Shown here: one piece after another, positions 11,372-63,845 of the stretch
How the letters are laid out: every line of letters begins with the position of its first letter
Numbering within the stretch: position 1 is the first letter of the stretch
Source: Oscillospiraceae bacterium
GTDB taxonomy: Bacteria > Bacillota > Clostridia > Oscillospirales > Acutalibacteraceae
Direction of reading: 5' to 3'
Assembly (NCBI GenBank): GCA_031261445.1
Contig: JAISJQ010000044.1
Location: forward strand, 1-64,000
Length of the DNA stretch: 64,000 nucleotides
Notes under the pieces: generated by a model
What the model was told of the DNA's origin: nothing
What the model saw: only the letters and a program-made list of their open reading frames with translations
Database searches by the model: none
Position numbers and translations under genes: made by a program

Positions 11372-13111
11372 ATGCCGGACGAGACAAACACCCCACCGCA
11401 GGCGCAGGACGGGCAAGACCCGCAACCTACGGGACAAATCCCGCCGCAAGGGATGCCCTATCCGTACCCGTTTTATGGGTACGGTGCCCCGCAGGGTATG
11501 CCGCCCATGCCGCAAATGCCGCCGATGGACGCGCAGGGGCAGATGCCCTATCCCGGCGGGCAGTACCCCATGTTTATCCCCGTGCCCGTGCCCATGATGA
11601 TGTCGCCCTATGGCTATCCGCAGGCACTGCCGCCGCAGGGCGGCGCGAGCCTGAACAGCTACGAGCGTCAGGCAGGGATGCAGGTGGTCTATCAAGACGG
11701 CGCGGGGCAACAGCCCATGGGCTATGGCGGCTATATGCCCCCGATGATGCCCATGATGCCGCCCTATGGCTATGGCGGGATGCAGCCGCCCTTTGCGGGC
11801 TATGGCGCAACGCAACAGCCCCCGAAAGCCGCGTTTGATGAGGACGTGGAGGTGCTCTACCAAGCGCACGAGCAGCCCCCCACCGAGCCAGAGGAAACGC
11901 CGCAACCCGTTCAGCCCAGTCCCGCCGCGAAGGACACAAAAAAAGAAGACGCGCCGAAGAAAAAGAGCGCGAAAGAGCCCGTGGGTGAATACAGCTCTCT
12001 GCGCGATCTGTTTGAAGAGGCGGGCGTGACGGTGCTCCAAACGCTGGAGGAAGAGGCGGAAGATCTGGCCGACCTGTTTGAAGAGCCGGGCACACATGCC
12101 TCCCCTCTAAAACAGCAGTGGCACGACCTGTTCCCCCACAAAGAGGACTCCAAGGGCGAGAAAGTGCGCAAGTCGGTGTTCCTCACGCTCATCCCCGTGA
12201 TTCTCATCTCTGCCTCCCTTGTGCTCAACACCTTCTTGCTCACGCCCATGCGCGAAGCCAAAAAGCTCGGGCAAGTCAAAACGGTTGTGATGAGCGTGCC
12301 CATCCCCATGGAGACCATGATTGCGCAAAACGCGGACGTGAACTTCCTGCCGAACATGCAGGCGAAATATGCCGGCGCATACGTGGAAAATCAGGACTTG
12401 CGCGGGTGGATCAACATTCCGTGGCTAGAGATTGACTACCCCGTGGTGCAAAAGACCTATGACGACCCGGCGCAACAGAGACGAGAGGGCAACCAGTACT
12501 ACCTCTCCCACGCGTTCGATGGCTCGAAAAACAAGTACGGCGTGCCGTTCTTTGATACCTACGACCGCTTTGAGCCGGCGAAGCTCAGCCGCAATTTGGT
12601 CATATATGGGCACAACAACAAATATGTTGATCTTGTGTTCCATAATTTGCTCAAATACGCCGACCCCGCCCAGTGGCAGGCCGAGCCGACCATTAAGGTG
12701 GACACCGTCTATGCCGAATACCGCTGGCAGATCTACGCGGTGTTCTATGCCAAAGGCGAGCGGCACAGCGAGGGCGAATACCTCTTCCCCTATAACTGGG
12801 TCAAGATGGACAGCGACCAAGAGTTCCTGAACTATATCGCCGAGGTGGATCGCCGCAAGCTCTACGACACGGGCATCAAAATGCAGCCAGACGACCACAT
12901 CCTCACGCTCTCCACCTGCGCCTATAACTTTGACAACTCGCGCTTTGTCGTCGTCGCGCGTCTCGTCAAGCCCGGCGAAGAGCCGTACCCCGACCGCAAC
13001 AAAGTGCGCGTCAACGCCAACCCGCAGTACCCGGCGTACTACTACCAAAAGAAAAAGCTCAACAATCCCTTCAAGGATTTCCCCGACTGGCAATACGACC
13101 CGAAGATGTAA
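11372..13111 (+). CDS. Class B-type sortase with long Pro/Met/Tyr-rich cytoplasmic region
   Basis: ATG 11372 follows GGAGAG, 25 bp after cinA. The protein is 579 aa, about twice the usual sortase. Residues 1 to ~190 are low-complexity and rich in Pro, Met, Gly, Tyr and Gln (GYGGYMPPMMPMMPPYGYGG). Next comes an acidic/Lys-rich linker and one membrane helix (about 268-289, SVFLTLIPVILISASLVLNTF). The sortase fold follows with the catalytic His in VIYGHNN (~412), Cys in TLSTCAY (~513) and Arg in NSRFVVVARL (~523). The TLSTC and YGHN forms fit class B. Sortases join sorting-signal proteins to the wall or to pili. No LPxTG/NPxTN substrate lies in the window. The unusual part is the long N-terminal extension, predicted cytoplasmic. 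Confidence 0.9.
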   Translation: MPDETNTPPQAQDGQDPQPTGQIPPQGMPYPYPFYGYGAPQGMPPMPQMPPMDAQGQMPYPGGQYPMFIPVPVPMMMSPYGYPQALPPQGGASLNSYERQAGMQVVYQDGAGQQPMGYGGYMPPMMPMMPPYGYGGMQPPFAGYGATQQPPKAAFDEDVEVLYQAHEQPPTEPEETPQPVQPSPAAKDTKKEDAPKKKSAKEPVGEYSSLRDLFEEAGVTVLQTLEEEAEDLADLFEEPGTHASPLKQQWHDLFPHKEDSKGEKVRKSVFLTLIPVILISASLVLNTFLLTPMREAKKLGQVKTVVMSVPIPMETMIAQNADVNFLPNMQAKYAGAYVENQDLRGWINIPWLEIDYPVVQKTYDDPAQQRREGNQYYLSHAFDGSKNKYGVPFFDTYDRFEPAKLSRNLVIYGHNNKYVDLVFHNLLKYADPAQWQAEPTIKVDTVYAEYRWQIYAVFYAKGERHSEGEYLFPYNWVKMDSDQEFLNYIAEVDRRKLYDTGIKMQPDDHILTLSTCAYNFDNSRFVVVARLVKPGEEPYPDRNKVRVNANPQYPAYYYQKKKLNNPFKDFPDWQYDPKM

Positions 13112-13161
13112 TTGCTGGGCGGTGGAGATAGATCAATCACATCACATAAGAGGAGAAACAC

Positions 13162-13860
13162 ATGGCAACTTGTACGAAATGCGGCAACGAATTTGTGGAC
13201 GGATCGCTGTTCTGCCCGTCCTGTGGCGCATTGGTGGGCAACACCACTGTGCCGCCCCTAGCCCCCGAAAGCAACCAAACACAGGCAGAACCTGCCCCGC
13301 AGGCGAGCGCTTGGCAAGCCCCCCAACCCGCCCCCGCGCCGCTACCTGGAACATATCCGCCGCCGCAAAACACCGCTGGGCAACCGCCGCTCTATGGCAC
13401 TGCACCGAACGGGCAAGCCCAGCCGGGCTACGGCTACCCCGCGCCTGAGCAGGACGACGTGCAGACCAACAAGGTCATGGCAATCCTGTCCTACTTTGGC
13501 CTGCTGGCGCTCATCCCGTGGTTCGCCGCGCCGAACAGCAAGTTCGCGCGTTTCCACGCCAAAGAGGGCATCAAACTGTTGCTCATTGAGGCGGCCGTGT
13601 CGGTTGTGCGCTATCTGATTAACTCCTTGCTCTTCAAGACACTGCTCTTCCCCCTCACGGGCTATAACCCGTTTATCAGCCTCCTGAGCGGCATCATTAG
13701 CTTTGCAGTGGGTGCAGTGAGCCTCGTTGCCTTCGTGCTGTCCATCATGGGCATCGTCAACGCGGCCAATGGCGAGTTCAAGAAAGTGCCGCTGCTGGAC
13801 AAAATCCCCCTGTGGGACAAATTCTCGTTCCTGCAGGACGACGAGTCCGCGAACATCTAA
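13162..13860 (+). CDS. Zinc-ribbon membrane protein with Pro/Gln-rich linker
   Basis: A 232-aa protein starting after AGAGGAG. An N-terminal zinc ribbon (CTKCGNEFVDGSLFCPSCGALVG, two CxxC pairs) is followed by a Pro/Gln/Ala-rich linker (about 30-95). Then comes a DUF4870-like membrane domain with about three helices (KVMAILSYFGLLALIPWF; two helices at ~140-205). It sits 50 bp after the sortase gene and probably shares its transcript. A strong terminator follows. The function is unknown; the low-complexity linker echoes the sortase N-terminus. Confidence 0.85.
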   Translation: MATCTKCGNEFVDGSLFCPSCGALVGNTTVPPLAPESNQTQAEPAPQASAWQAPQPAPAPLPGTYPPPQNTAGQPPLYGTAPNGQAQPGYGYPAPEQDDVQTNKVMAILSYFGLLALIPWFAAPNSKFARFHAKEGIKLLLIEAAVSVVRYLINSLLFKTLLFPLTGYNPFISLLSGIISFAVGAVSLVAFVLSIMGIVNAANGEFKKVPLLDKIPLWDKFSFLQDDESANI

Positions 13861-13876
13861 AGAGCAAATCGGGCTT

Positions 13877-13912
13877 CCGCGCACGGGGCGCATTCTGTGC
13901 GCGGGGCTTTTT
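13877..13912 (+). terminator. Rho-independent terminator
   Basis: CCGCGCAC...GTGCGCGG stem followed by GGCTTTTT, 17 bp after the zinc-ribbon gene. Confidence 0.85.
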
Positions 13913-13933
13913 CTGGCGGGAGGGGGAGACGCG

Positions 13934-14662
13934 TTGGCGTACCGCATTGCGTTGGTCTCTGGCAAAGGCGGATCGGGCAAAAGTACCGCGACTGCGGGTC
14001 TGGCACAGGCGTTCTGTGCGCAAGGCCTGCGCGTGCTGTGCGTGGACTGTGACATCGGTCTGCGCAGTTTGGATTTGTTGCTGGGTTTTCCCGGCGACAT
14101 TGTGTTCTCATGGGCGGATGTGCTGCGGGGGAACTGCACCCTAGAGCAGGCCTTGCGCACGCGCGACACGATCTCCCTGCTGCCTGCCCCCCTTGCCACC
14201 ATGGAAAAACCCGATGGCGAGGCCTATTTCGCGCTCCTGCGCCGCGTCTCAAGCGACTACGACATCGTGCTGCTGGATGCCCCGGCGGGGTTCTCCGTGG
14301 GCTTTGCGCTGGCGGCCGCGCCGGCCGATTTGGCGCTGGTGGTGGCGCAGGCCGAGCCGGTGGCCTTGCGCAGTGCGGCGGTCTGTGTGCGCGATCTGCA
14401 CGAGGCGTACCCCACGCTGAAGGTGCGCTTGCTGCTCAATCGTCTGCACAAAAAGCGCGTGCAAAACGGCATCAACCTCAACATTGACGATGCCATCGAC
14501 AGCGTGGGCGCACAGCTCATCGGCATCATCCCCGAGGACGAGGCCGTCCCCGCCATGCTCGGCAAGGGCAAGCCCCTGCCGGACTATGCCCGCGCGGCCG
14601 GGGCGTTCGCCCGCACAGCGCGGCGCGTGGGCGGCGAGAGCCTCCCGCTGAGGATCGACTGA
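13934..14662 (+). CDS. MinD/ParA-type P-loop ATPase
   Basis: Start TTG 13934 after GGGGGAG; the longer ORF call overlaps the previous gene and terminator. The protein is 242 aa. The deviant Walker A motif is SGKGGSGKSTATAGLAQAF, followed by VDCDIGLRSLD (A') and IVLLDAPAG (Walker B). NGINLNIDDAIDSVGAQLIGIIPEDEAV matches the MinD C-terminal half. The end (RRVGGESLPLRID) lacks the amphipathic membrane-targeting helix of true MinD, and no minC/minE/flhF is nearby. It overlaps the methyltransferase start (ATGA). A spatial-regulator ATPase is likely, but its cargo is unknown. Confidence 0.85.
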   Translation: MAYRIALVSGKGGSGKSTATAGLAQAFCAQGLRVLCVDCDIGLRSLDLLLGFPGDIVFSWADVLRGNCTLEQALRTRDTISLLPAPLATMEKPDGEAYFALLRRVSSDYDIVLLDAPAGFSVGFALAAAPADLALVVAQAEPVALRSAAVCVRDLHEAYPTLKVRLLLNRLHKKRVQNGINLNIDDAIDSVGAQLIGIIPEDEAVPAMLGKGKPLPDYARAAGAFARTARRVGGESLPLRID

Positions 14663-15351
14663 TGACCAAGCAGAGCCACTATTTTGTGGATGATCCGCTT
14701 GTGCAACCGGACAAGCGGCAGTTTGCCCATTACTTTGGTGCACAGCGTCTGCAGTTCACCAGTGACGCGGGCTTGTTCAGCCACGGCGCGGTGGACGGCG
14801 CAACGGACTTTCTCTTGCGCACCATGGCGGCGGATGCCGCATTTTGTGCGCTTGCCGAGCAGGGCGGCGCACTGCTGGACTTAGGTTGCGGCTGGGGCGC
14901 GGTGGGTGTGACATTGGGCGCGGCGTACCCCAAACTGCGCGTGCTCTTTGCGGACGTCAACCCCAAGGCACTGCGTTTGGCCGAAAAAAATGCCGCCGAT
15001 AATCACGTTGCCGCCGAATTTGTGCACACAGACGGCTTTGCCGCTTTGGCGGAGCGGTGCTTTGACTGCATCGCGGTCAACCCGCCGATTCACGCAGGCA
15101 AGGACGTCTGCCGCCGCCTGCTGACGGACGCGCTCTCGCACTTGACGCCGCAGGGTGCGCTGTACGTGGTGATGCACAAAAAACACGGTGCGCTCTCGAT
15201 GCTCGACACGCTGGCGGCTGTCTGCCCTGTAGAGATTCTCGCGCGGGAAAAGGGCAAAATAGTTTTCAAATCAGAGGGGAGAGGGCAGAGGACAGAAGAC
15301 AGATTTTTGGGGTGCAATTCTGCCCTCTGTCCTCTGCCCTCTGAGTTCTGA
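14662..15351 (+). CDS. RsmC/YbxB-like class I SAM methyltransferase with repeat-encoded C-terminus
   Basis: ATG overlaps the stop of the MinD-like gene. The protein is 229 aa. It resembles the small RsmC-type rRNA guanine-N2 methyltransferases of Firmicutes (~200 aa): FTSDAGLFSHGAVDGAT, the SAM-binding LLDLGCGWGAVGVTLG, VNPPIHAGK (NPPF-type catalytic motif) and VVMHKKHGA. Homology ends at EKGKIVFKS. The last ~25 residues (EGRGQRTEDRFLGCNSALCP...) are translated from a CAGAGGA heptad array and its inverted half. The tail puts the stop 2 nt before the next gene's ATG. Substrate specificity is not proven. Confidence 0.87.
   Translation: MTKQSHYFVDDPLVQPDKRQFAHYFGAQRLQFTSDAGLFSHGAVDGATDFLLRTMAADAAFCALAEQGGALLDLGCGWGAVGVTLGAAYPKLRVLFADVNPKALRLAEKNAADNHVAAEFVHTDGFAALAERCFDCIAVNPPIHAGKDVCRRLLTDALSHLTPQGALYVVMHKKHGALSMLDTLAAVCPVEILAREKGKIVFKSEGRGQRTEDRFLGCNSALCPLPSEF
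15273..15350. repeat. CAGAGGA array with inverted half inside the RsmC-like gene
   Basis: CAGAGGGGAGAGGGCAGAGG followed by ACAGAAGACAGA, a TTTTTGGGGTGCAA core, then TCTGCCCTCTGTCCTCTGCC. It is wholly translated and open in this frame. Confidence 0.85.
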
Positions 15352-15353
15352 TT

Positions 15354-16556
15354 ATGCACTATACCCCAGAACAGTTTGGCGCGGTGGGCGATGGTGTCGC
15401 ATTGGATACCGCCGCGTTGCAGTGTGCGCTGGACGCTTGCGCGGGGACGGGCGGGTGCGTGCGGTTGGCGGCGGGGAAGACCTATCTCTCTGGCTCGCTG
15501 ACGCTGGGTGCGCACACGGATCTGCACCTTGAGCCGGGCGCGACCCTCTTGGCCAGCCCGAATCTCGCGCACTACTACGCGCCGGGCACGGTGGACAACG
15601 CGGACAATCGCGGCGTGGGTACGCCCGTCACCCGTGGTCCCGCCTTCGTGTTTCTCCACGCGGCGCACGTCAGCCACCTGCGCTTCACGGGCACGGGGCG
15701 CATCGACGGCAATGGCGGCGTTTTCATGCACCGTGTCAATCCATACTACGCCACGGGGGACTTTTACCCGCGCCCCACGCTGCTGTATCTGGAGGACTGC
15801 GACCATCTGCGCCTGCGCGACATCACGCTGCAAAACGCGCCCTTTTGGACGCTACACACCGCTGGTTGTCGCGATGTGGAAATCGACCACATCACCATCG
15901 ACAACCCCCTCGACTGGGCGAACAGCGACGGGATTGACCCAGATCACTGCCAAAATGTGCGCATCAAAAACTGCCGCATCTCTTGCGCGGACGACTGCAT
16001 CTGCCTGAAAAACACGCGTGGCGCGGCGGCCTATCCCGGCACGCGGGATGTGCACATCAGCGGTTGCCGCCTGTGCTCCACCAGCGCGGCCATCAAAATC
16101 GGCACAGAGGGGGTGGACGACTTTGCGGACATCCTCGTGGAGGACTGTGTCATCGAGGCCTCCAATCGCGGCGTGAGCATCCAGATCCGCGACGGCGGCA
16201 GTGTGTCGGGCGCGGTGTTTCGCAATCTGCAGATCCAAACGCGCCGCTTTTCCCCCGACTGGTGGGGCTCGGCCGAACCCATCGCCCTCACGGCGTTTGA
16301 CCGCGACGAAAATACGCACTGTGGTAGCATTTCAAACGTGCGTTTCGAGCACATACAAGCGCAGGGCGAAAACGGCGTGCTCCTGTGCGGACAGGACGGC
16401 CGCATCCACGACATCACGCTCGAAGACGTGCACGTCACGCTCCAGACCACCTCGCGCTGGCCGCACATCGGCTATGACTTGCGCCCCGGCTCTGCGCCCG
16501 CGCCGTTTTTGGATTGCCCAACCCAGCCCTTTCTGTCGATCGCCGCAAAACGCTAA
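15354..16556 (+). CDS. GH28 family glycoside hydrolase (polygalacturonase-like)
   Basis: A 400-aa right-handed beta-helix protein. The start is typical of pectin-acting GH28 enzymes (FGAVGDGVALDTAALQCALDACAGTGG). The active-site motifs appear as NSDGIDPDHCQNV (NxDG), CADDCICLK (the DD pair) and AIKIGTEG (RIK-like). There is no signal peptide, so it acts in the cytoplasm, perhaps on imported pectic or other uronide oligomers. The ATG lies 2 nt after the preceding stop with no ribosome binding site: the DNA just upstream is the heptad array. Translation probably depends on coupling to the methyltransferase. Confidence 0.9.
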   Translation: MHYTPEQFGAVGDGVALDTAALQCALDACAGTGGCVRLAAGKTYLSGSLTLGAHTDLHLEPGATLLASPNLAHYYAPGTVDNADNRGVGTPVTRGPAFVFLHAAHVSHLRFTGTGRIDGNGGVFMHRVNPYYATGDFYPRPTLLYLEDCDHLRLRDITLQNAPFWTLHTAGCRDVEIDHITIDNPLDWANSDGIDPDHCQNVRIKNCRISCADDCICLKNTRGAAAYPGTRDVHISGCRLCSTSAAIKIGTEGVDDFADILVEDCVIEASNRGVSIQIRDGGSVSGAVFRNLQIQTRRFSPDWWGSAEPIALTAFDRDENTHCGSISNVRFEHIQAQGENGVLLCGQDGRIHDITLEDVHVTLQTTSRWPHIGYDLRPGSAPAPFLDCPTQPFLSIAAKR

Positions 16557-16587
16557 CGTGCGTGCGCTGTAGCGAGACATGAGAACA

Positions 16588-16620
16588 TTGTTCATTGTTC
16601 ATTGTCCATTGTTCATTGCC
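16588..16620. repeat. TTGTTCA heptad array
   Basis: Four to five units (TTGTTCA, TTGTTCA, TTGTCCA, TTGTTCA, TTG), merging with the -35 of the next promoter. Confidence 0.85.
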
Positions 16621-16644
16621 TTGCGTGCCCGATTGTGTTATACT
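16616..16644 (+). promoter_or_regulatory. Promoter of the NAPRTase-like gene, -35 inside a heptad array
   Basis: TTGCCT (16616-16621), 17 bp, TATACT (16639-16644). The -35 is made from the end of the TTGTTCA array. Confidence 0.6.
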
Positions 16645-16668
16645 ATACGCTGGCAGGGAGGCTGTATC

Positions 16669-17742
16669 ATGTCGATGGTGAAAAATGCGCTGTTTGAGCT
16701 GTATTTTCAGCGCAACCCCCGCAGTGGCGGGTTCGCACTGTTCAGTGCCGGGCAACGCCCGCTAGACGAGCTTTTGGACACAGGCGGCTTGACGCTGCGC
16801 CGCGTGCCGGAGGGCACAGCCGTCTTTCCGGGCGAGCCCGTGCTCACGCTGGAGGGTGCGCCGGAGGACTGCGTCCGCCTCGCGCCGCTGCTGGCGGAAA
16901 AAGTCCGCGCCGCAACCGCCCGCGCCACCGCCGCCGTGCGCATGAAACTGGCCGCCGAAGACAGCGCGGTGCAGCTCCCCGGCGAGCATGGTGCGCTCCC
17001 CGATAACACCTTCATCCACTGCTTCACCGACGAAAAAAGCGCGTTTGCGTATCTTGTCGCCCAAAATCGGGCACAGTGCGTCTTGCCCGTGGACAGCGTC
17101 AGCGTCCTGCAAAGCGGCATCCCCAACGCCATCGCGGCGTTCGTGGACTACGGCGGCGAAAAGGGCGTGCGCATCGCCAATGGCGACATCGCCTACGCCG
17201 CCATCCATGCCCGCCGCCAGCTGGACGCCGCAGGTCTGCAGTCCGTGCGGATTTTCGCGGGCGGTGCGCTCGATGAGTTCCTCATCCGCGACCTGAAACG
17301 GCAAGGTGCGCCCATCGACGTGTTCTGCGTGGACACGCTACCGGCCAGCAACGAGTTTCGCGTGCGCTGGGCGGTGAGCGAGGGCGACGGCGTGCCCAAA
17401 ATGACCCGCAGCCAGAACATCGACAAAATCACGCCGCCCGGGCGCAAGCGGCTGTGGCGCGTGTGGGACGAAGACGGCAAGGCGCTGGCGGATCTGCTGA
17501 CGCTGGCGGACGAGACCCTCCCCATCGGTCAGCCCTACACGCTCTTTGACCCGCACTATCCGTGGAAAAAGACCACCGTACAGTCGCTGAACGCCACGGA
17601 ACTCTTGGGCGCTTCCGCGCAAAATCTGGGCGTAGAGACCCTCTGGGACACCGTCAAACGCTTTGAAAATCCGCACAAATACTACGTGGATTACGCACAG
17701 AGGCTCTGGGATTTGTTTCAAGAAACTATGCAAAGTGCGTGA
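16669..17742 (+). CDS. Degenerate nicotinate phosphoribosyltransferase-like protein
   Basis: ATG 16669 follows GGGAGG. The protein is 357 aa against ~480 for bacterial NAPRTase. Family landmarks remain: ALFELYFQRNPRSGGFALFSAG, HCFTDEKSAFAYL, LDEFLIRDLKRQGAPID, PPGRKRLWRVWDEDGKALADLLTLADE. Expected active-site sequences are changed. RLDSGD reads RIANGD, the S-x-LDE serine is Gly (AGGALDE), FGVGT reads FCVDT, and the RRAxG region is deleted. The reading frame is intact, so it is not a simple pseudogene. It may be a repurposed or inactive paralogue of the NAD-salvage enzyme. TTGTTCA arrays flank it on both sides. Confidence 0.75.
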   Translation: MSMVKNALFELYFQRNPRSGGFALFSAGQRPLDELLDTGGLTLRRVPEGTAVFPGEPVLTLEGAPEDCVRLAPLLAEKVRAATARATAAVRMKLAAEDSAVQLPGEHGALPDNTFIHCFTDEKSAFAYLVAQNRAQCVLPVDSVSVLQSGIPNAIAAFVDYGGEKGVRIANGDIAYAAIHARRQLDAAGLQSVRIFAGGALDEFLIRDLKRQGAPIDVFCVDTLPASNEFRVRWAVSEGDGVPKMTRSQNIDKITPPGRKRLWRVWDEDGKALADLLTLADETLPIGQPYTLFDPHYPWKKTTVQSLNATELLGASAQNLGVETLWDTVKRFENPHKYYVDYAQRLWDLFQETMQSA

Positions 17743-17751
17743 AGGCTTCAC

Positions 17752-17796
17752 AATAATTGTTCATTGTTCATTGTTAATTCTTAATTGTACTAAGGG
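17752..17796. repeat. TTGTTCA/TTGTTAA heptad array
   Basis: ATTGTTCATTGTTCATTGTT, continuing AATTCTTAATTGTAC, 10 bp after the NAPRTase-like stop and ending just before the pcrA binding site. Confidence 0.85.
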
Positions 17797-17807
17797 AGTC
17801 ACACCGC

Positions 17808-30961: not shown

Positions 30962-31132
30962 GGATTAGGTAATAGGTAATAGTGAATAGTGAATAGGTGT
31001 TGGGATGAGGTTCGTAGGGGTGGATATCATCCGCCCGCTGTTCTAGCAGATGTCAGATGTCAGAAGTTAGAAGACAGAGGACAGAATGGCGAACCCCAAA
31101 ATCTGCCCTCTGTCCTCTGAACTCTGCCTTCT
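30962..31132. repeat. TAGTGAA and CAGAGGA arrays with a GTAGGGG palindrome
   Basis: TTAGGTAATAGGTAATAGTGAATAGTGAATAGG (about 30965-30997), CGTAGGGGTGGATATCATCC (about 31014-31040), then CAGATGT/CAGAAGT/CAGAGGA units (about 31048-31085) with the inverted half TCTGCCCTCTGTCCTCTG at about 31102-31132. Confidence 0.85.
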
Positions 31133-46448: not shown

Positions 46449-46537
46449 GAGAGGGCAGAGGTCAGAGGGCAGAAGACAGAGGGCAGAGACGCGCCCAAAT
46501 AATCTGTCCTCTGTCTTCTGATTTCCGTCCTCTGAAA
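46449..46537. repeat. CAGAGGG array with inverted half
   Basis: AGAGGGCAGAGGTCAGAGGG and CAGAAGACAGAGGGCAGAG, core ACGCGCCCAAAT, then TCTGTCCTCTGTCTTCTG: a clear imperfect palindrome. Confidence 0.85.
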
Positions 46538-63734: not shown

Positions 63735-63845
63735 CAGAGGACAGATATCAGAGGACAGAGTGCAGAGTTGCGCCCGAAAATCTGTCTTCTGCTCTCTGAC
63801 CTCTGCATTCTGTACAGCGGACGCGCAGGGGCGCGCGCCCCTACA
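63735..63845. repeat. CAGAGGA array with inverted half and a reversed GTAGGGG palindrome
   Basis: CAGAGGA-CAGATAT-CAGAGGA-CAGAGTG-CAGAG begins at the base after the nadD stop. Core TTGCGCCCGAAAA, then TCTGTCTTCTGCTCTCTGACC and ACAGCGGACGCGCAGGGGCGC palindrome (about 63814-63843). Confidence 0.88.

Follow-up and report, generated by a model that had tools for sequence, protein, structure and literature searches.

In Coxiella burnetii Dugway, about 33 C-terminal residues of EnhC are encoded by a QMITE2 element, and the stop codon lies just beyond it; in another strain, an indel puts the stop just before QMITE2 at enhC, and all the overlaps between QMITEs and functional genes are at 3' ends (PMC5896051). 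As regards translation across gene junctions, reinitiation is assumed for pairs whose stop-start spacing falls between -8 and +10 nt, and a distance of about 20 nt nearly abolishes it (PMC10666635). An SD sequence aids the process, yet it is dispensable in some pairs (PMC6728339; PMC12548453). SD removal cut reinitiation in four of five pairs in Escherichia coli (PMC6728339), and SD-free reinitiation is known, although it is usually weaker (PMC12548453; PMC6728339).

Here we analyze a gene junction in a 64,000-nucleotide stretch of Oscillospiraceae DNA (the window), where a palindrome built of CAGARGN heptamers encodes the C-terminal tail of a methyltransferase and ends at the start codon of a GH28 glycosidase gene.

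Results

Methyltransferase gene and its surroundings

The product of the upstream gene contains an MTS domain (PF05175; Pfam domain search), and its nearest solved chain is MJ0882 (1dus), followed by RsmC. The original prediction had called it RsmC-like; RsmC itself proved too specific a name, since the protein scored 69.5 bits against the RsmC equivalog NF007023, below the cut-off of 295. RsmC proper (16S rRNA m2G1207) was thus discarded as its identity, and we refer to it as an RsmC-like member of the MTS family. A homologue is present in all four congeners, with identities of 55 to 63%. The order of the sortase-like (so labeled from its TLSTC motif alone), MinD-like and methyltransferase genes is kept in two of them (G002 and G003), and the downstream neighbors differ. 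A terminator-like hairpin (consensus match only), which precedes the MinD-like gene, suggests that the MinD-like, methyltransferase and GH28 genes constitute one unit (Table 1).

Table 1. Positions of the features discussed in the text, numbered along the window
Feature	Position	Strand	Remarks
Terminator-like hairpin, 5' of MinD-like gene	13875-13906	+	Consensus match only
MinD-like ATPase	13934-14662	+	Overlaps methyltransferase start (TGATG)
Methyltransferase, MTS family (PF05175), RsmC/MJ0882-like	14662-15351	+	229 aa including repeat-coded tail
CAGARGN heptamer palindrome, 85 nt	15269-15353	.	Arms 15269-15306 and 15316-15353, 9-nt center
Repeat-coded tail SEGRGQRTEDRFLGCNSALCPLPSEF, residues 204-229	15271-15348	+	From homologue comparison; model confidence low
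UGA stop from palindrome right end (TCTGATT)	15349-15351	+	
GH28 glycosidase (polygalacturonase-like), 400 aa	15354-16556	+	ATG at palindrome edge, no SD
Repeat copy, 79% identical	31053-31132	-	
Repeat copy, 83% identical	46456-46534	-	
Repeat copy	63735-63812	-	

A palindrome fills the junction

The palindrome occupies all of the space between the last native-looking codon of the methyltransferase and the ATG of GH28. Its arms, of 38 nt each, are 82% complementary, and the junction RNA was predicted to fold at -58 kcal/mol (z = -5.4 versus shuffles). The heptamer CAGAGGA occurs 22 times in the window, almost five times more often than expected (4.65 ± 1.95). No target-site duplication was seen when positions 15263-15268 and 15354-15359 were compared by eye, and a search of positions 14600-17800 against Rfam gave no match.

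The methyltransferase tail is encoded by the repeat

Read in frame, the same-genus homologues end in ...VARCGV*, ...VFRLYVN* and ...VARLRPVK* (G001 to G003), and a more distant one (G041) ends in ...VFELKK*. All four stops lie 2 to 5 residues past the position aligned with VFK. In the fourth congener the open frame, at 211 aa from stop to stop, is too short to accommodate a long tail. Since the homologues end so soon after VFK, residues 204-229, which include the peptide TEDRFLGCNSALCPLPSEF, are the addition made by the palindrome. These 26 residues are in agreement with the approximately 25 announced by the original prediction, which had also located the end of the homologues at FKS; the position was correct within the distance given above, but no homologue literally ends in FKS.

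That the repeat changed the end of the protein, as had been proposed, is well supported by these comparisons. The tail is absent in all the homologues read, the repeat is absent in all congeners, and comparison of the junction in relatives revealed no homologue with the same tail but without the repeat. Furthermore, a second enzyme of this genome, a PLP aminotransferase (C21:45663-46907, minus strand, L207), bears a repeat-coded tail of about 12 residues that is absent in its homologues. These two genes alone were recovered in a stricter scan for repeat-coded tails, and looser scans gave further overlaps.

In the AlphaFold2 model of the methyltransferase, the fold is complete at the strand formed by residues 199-205. 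The pLDDT falls below 50 for residues 209-229 (32 to 34 in the tail), which agrees with a disordered tail but would be expected anyway for any tail without homologues. The tail is probably disordered and tolerated.

GH28 start codon

The downstream gene has an intact, full-length frame with a good coding score, and its GH28 domain (PF00295) reached 104 bits, versus a cut-off of 22.9. Its N-terminus (MHYTPEQFGAVGDG) fits those of its relatives, and the ATG at the palindrome edge is likely to be the start codon. The next in-frame candidate, a GTG without SD, is located within the conserved GAVGDG motif and was rejected.

Two further elements of the original prediction were confirmed, namely, that the new stop lies 2 nt before the GH28 start and that this start has no ribosome binding site. 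Because the palindrome edge touches the start codon, GH28 lacks a separate SD. The SD duplex energy was -2.2 kcal/mol versus a genome median of -7.9, weaker than that of about 96% of 416 starts and no better than that of random ATGs (median, -2.8). No independent start site for GH28 was found: no sigma-70-like promoter site was detected on the plus strand from 13000 to 16600, and both a promoter within the element and a leaderless start were considered and discarded, neither being found. For its part, the closest GH28 homologue (67% identity; G003) is located elsewhere, beside an rnc-like gene and in divergent orientation, and is preceded by TATAAT- and AGGAG-like sites. A scan of the GH28 loci in other genomes revealed no CAGARGN doublets.

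The initiation region is predicted to be buried in the free mRNA, with a mean unpaired probability of 0.16 (84% paired) over positions -20 to -1 of the AUG. When the left arm was held open, the unpaired probability over positions -15 to -1 was approximately 0.5.

Downstream of GH28, the longest open reading frame of the nicotinate phosphoribosyltransferase gene begins at an AATGAAC-type repeat (MRTLFIVHCPLFIALRA...; window positions 16579-16680). Beyond this start there is a promoter-like site (16616-16644), which probably places the true start close to 16669-16675.

The repeat family

A genome-wide search for the pattern CAGARGNCAGARGNCAGA gave 216 matches (115 + 101), and a reversed control gave none. 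Elsewhere, the pattern was absent in the four congeners and in 54 other genomes, and a further genus of the family had four matches. The matches being almost confined to this species, the expansion is recent and took place at the species level. The copies consist of CAGARGN heptamer arms around a center like ATTGCGCCCAAAAAT, and they have diverged, with best identities of 87 to 88%.

Other families of like build were recognized, of the AATGAAC, AATAGTG, TGAGGNT and CTAGATT types. Perfect heptamer doublets numbered 847 in 814 kb, versus 82 in a Markov control, and those of period 8 numbered 27 versus 24. Samples from congeners showed a weak excess of heptamer doublets (G003) or nearly none (G002).

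When CAGARGN was entered in any frame, the median distance to the first stop was 23 codons, and 75% of the runs extended over at least 15 codons. The medians were 10 codons for AATGAAC, 6 for AATAGTG and 3 for CTAGATT; these three families and TGAGGNT contain a stop (TGA or TAG) within the heptamer itself. The CAGARGN element is open over long runs, so that, once the preceding stop is lost, a long tail follows.

No Y1 transposase (PF01797, RAYT) was found in this genome, which is about 90% complete, and the domain was present in 5 of 14 control genomes. A RAYT transposase was accordingly rejected as the mover of the palindrome.

Location of the repeats with respect to genes

A census was carried out on 814 kb (41% of the genome), read as stretches (C61, C12, C60, C55, C18, C21, C26, C40, C28, C69 and C42; loci L155-L174 and L180-L199), with genes taken from a home-made Markov caller, on which the numbers depend. 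This sample contained 62 CAGARGN clusters, 55 of them intergenic. A stop lay within 10 nt of 19 of 61 3' flanks, versus 9.3 ± 2.4 when elements were placed at random in the same gaps, and an extended definition of the element gave 29 of 65 versus 11.3 ± 1.9. Crowding was stronger for AATGAAC (48/102 versus 15.3 ± 3.3) and AATAGTG (20/44 versus 5.7 ± 2.0). At the 5' flanks, none of 51 CAGARGN flanks lay within 10 nt of a start, versus 5.5 simulated, and four heptamer families had no element within 10 nt before a start. The methyltransferase-GH28 element, which lies inside a called gene and was therefore omitted from the 5'-flank count, is the exception to this avoidance.

Seen from the genes, the stop codon lay inside a heptamer element in 60 of 493 confident genes (about 12%), and in a further 46 an element began 0 to 10 nt past the stop. 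Control positions 60, 90 and 120 nt downstream of the stop fell inside an element in just 25, 14 and 23 cases, respectively. In three convergent gene pairs, the element fills the stop-to-stop gap entirely. The GTAGGGGCG...CGCCCCTAC palindromes, a very abundant family (533 clusters in the 814 kb) that is also present in the window, often abut heptamer elements. They behaved in the opposite manner to the heptamer families and were depleted near stops: of their 477 flanks, 19 lay within 10 nt of a stop, versus 48.7 expected.

Repeat-derived pieces were also noted in other genes. The mutL gene (C18:20766-22604, minus strand, L200) carries an in-frame CAGARGN piece, VLEQKAEDRGQRAESLPEN, in a variable linker, with no counterpart in congeners. 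The N-terminal part of a PolC-type DNA polymerase (C60:84976-88647, plus strand) holds AAMNNEQRTMNNS, apparently encoded by the AATGAAC family. At C26:47534-48838 (plus strand), a gene ends in ...SADFCPLPSV, derived from the other CAGARGN arm, with its TAG stop provided by the adjoining GTAGGGGCG repeat. In the window, a short RhuM-like open reading frame (962-1531; named by sequence only) has a repeat-coded C-terminal part (SEGKSQKTEDRRRREDIHPVGARIARPL...) and is probably a truncated gene.

Discussion

The events that would best account for this junction begin with a species-specific, non-autonomous palindromic repeat that came to rest at the methyltransferase 3' end, as its relatives did at many other genes. 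The native stop would have been lost on the way, by the insertion or by a small adjoining deletion. Since neither the forward direction of CAGARGN nor the center of this copy contains a stop codon, the ribosome would read through the whole element, halt at the UGA of the distal edge and so add 26 residues. The hairpin would hide the GH28 initiation region in free mRNA; a ribosome translating the tail would melt it and terminate 2 nt before the AUG, and GH28 would be translated by termination-reinitiation. Taken as a whole, we favor this explanation, if only by a modest measure of confidence. The original interpretation was well supported for the changed protein end, and its coupling part is plausible in that it agrees with the anatomy of the junction (+2-nt spacing, no SD, buried start, no promoter).

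The spacing lies inside the range given for reinitiating pairs, and the SD that is usual, though not obligatory, before the downstream start of such pairs is absent. The latter point is relevant, because the 74 close gene pairs of this genome show a median SD energy of -9.0, with only three as weak as GH28. SD-free reinitiation is therefore not the habit of this organism, which counts against coupling, as does the effect of SD removal in E. coli. That close pairs normally retain a strong SD favors instead a situation in which the tail is real and GH28 is largely silenced, the element having cut off its former ribosome binding site and promoter, with too few ribosomes reinitiating in the absence of an SD and the gene on its way out. 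The same direction is indicated by the promoter- and SD-like sites in front of the nearest homologue and by four heptamer families leaving the region before starts free. Against silencing, GH28 has an intact, full-length frame with good coding and Pfam scores and an N-terminus matching those of its relatives, and we regard silencing as rather unlikely. GH28 might also be translated independently, from an unrecognized promoter or by SD-independent initiation, with no role for the nearby stop. About 4% of gene starts are as SD-poor as that of GH28, so some SD-free initiation probably exists; nevertheless, the lack of a sigma-70-like site upstream on the plus strand and the pairing of the initiation region make independent translation improbable. 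Judged from sequence features, coupling is plausible and more likely than either silencing or independent initiation.

Two further explanations concern the tail and the junction themselves. The genome is a draft in 75 contigs, approximately 90% complete and with very many repeat copies, and two places could have been joined erroneously at a repeat. Against such an error, the copies are diverged, the methyltransferase and GH28 each have near relatives within the genus, and exact words shared with the other sequence (814 kb) reach at most 24 nt, which is short for a misjoin; an assembly artifact is thus disfavored and very improbable. Recruitment of the tail for a function under selection (localization, stability or partner binding) finds nothing in its favor beyond the openness of the frame and the length of the tail. 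A CAGARGN element yields just such a sequence in that frame, the tail was modeled without structure, and an unrelated enzyme bears a similar peptide, so that we give recruitment hardly any credence.

The high proportion of stops found inside repeats raises the question of whether the palindromes target gene ends or simply persist at them. We put forward, as a tentative and rather doubtful generalization, that heptamer-palindrome families might settle preferentially on stops, with about one in eight genes owing its stop to a repeat, and some owing it C-terminal residues as well; the junction between the methyltransferase and GH28 would then be the extreme case, in which the start region of a neighbor was taken over and unrelated genes were coupled. 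A small repeat may rewrite the end of one protein and the translation start of its neighbor in one step, which would offer a simple route to operon-like coupling between unrelated genes. Heptamer palindromes located at stop codons were not described in the literature searched, an absence that is not proof of novelty.

Among known systems, REP/BIME sequences with RAYT are also short, mostly intergenic palindromes that number more than 100 (PMC2817692); here, the palindromes are larger and heptamer-armed, and no Y1 transposase was found. TAACTGA heptamers of Beggiatoaceae, Cyanobacteria and Bacteroidetes are likewise intergenic, some overlap the upstream stop, and their downstream genes are often without SD; however, they are direct repeats, mostly before starts, and not palindromes at stops (PMC4679880). 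Rickettsia palindromic elements (RPE) are open-frame palindromes that lie in frame inside conserved protein genes, as does the MutL linker piece here, but they are in-frame insertions of conserved sequence (PMC2229807), whereas the present elements are variable heptamer arrays, mostly intergenic and at stops. Termination-reinitiation pairs share with this junction a stop and a start a few nucleotides apart and the expectation that upstream translation feeds the downstream gene (PMC6728339, PMC10666635); they differ in that here the junction is made by a repeat, the functions are unrelated and there is no SD.

The QMITE2-EnhC case resembles that of the methyltransferase in having a palindromic, non-autonomous element at the 3' end of a gene. 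QMITEs, however, have terminal inverted and direct repeats, their arms are not heptamer arrays, and a downstream gene beginning right at the edge of the element has not been reported for them (PMC5896051). The element described here is palindromic and multi-copy, and the residues that it encodes are absent from homologues; it is thus a MITE-like 3'-end extension, a kind already known, whose variant features are the heptamer build, the crowding on stops and the take-over of a neighbor's start region.
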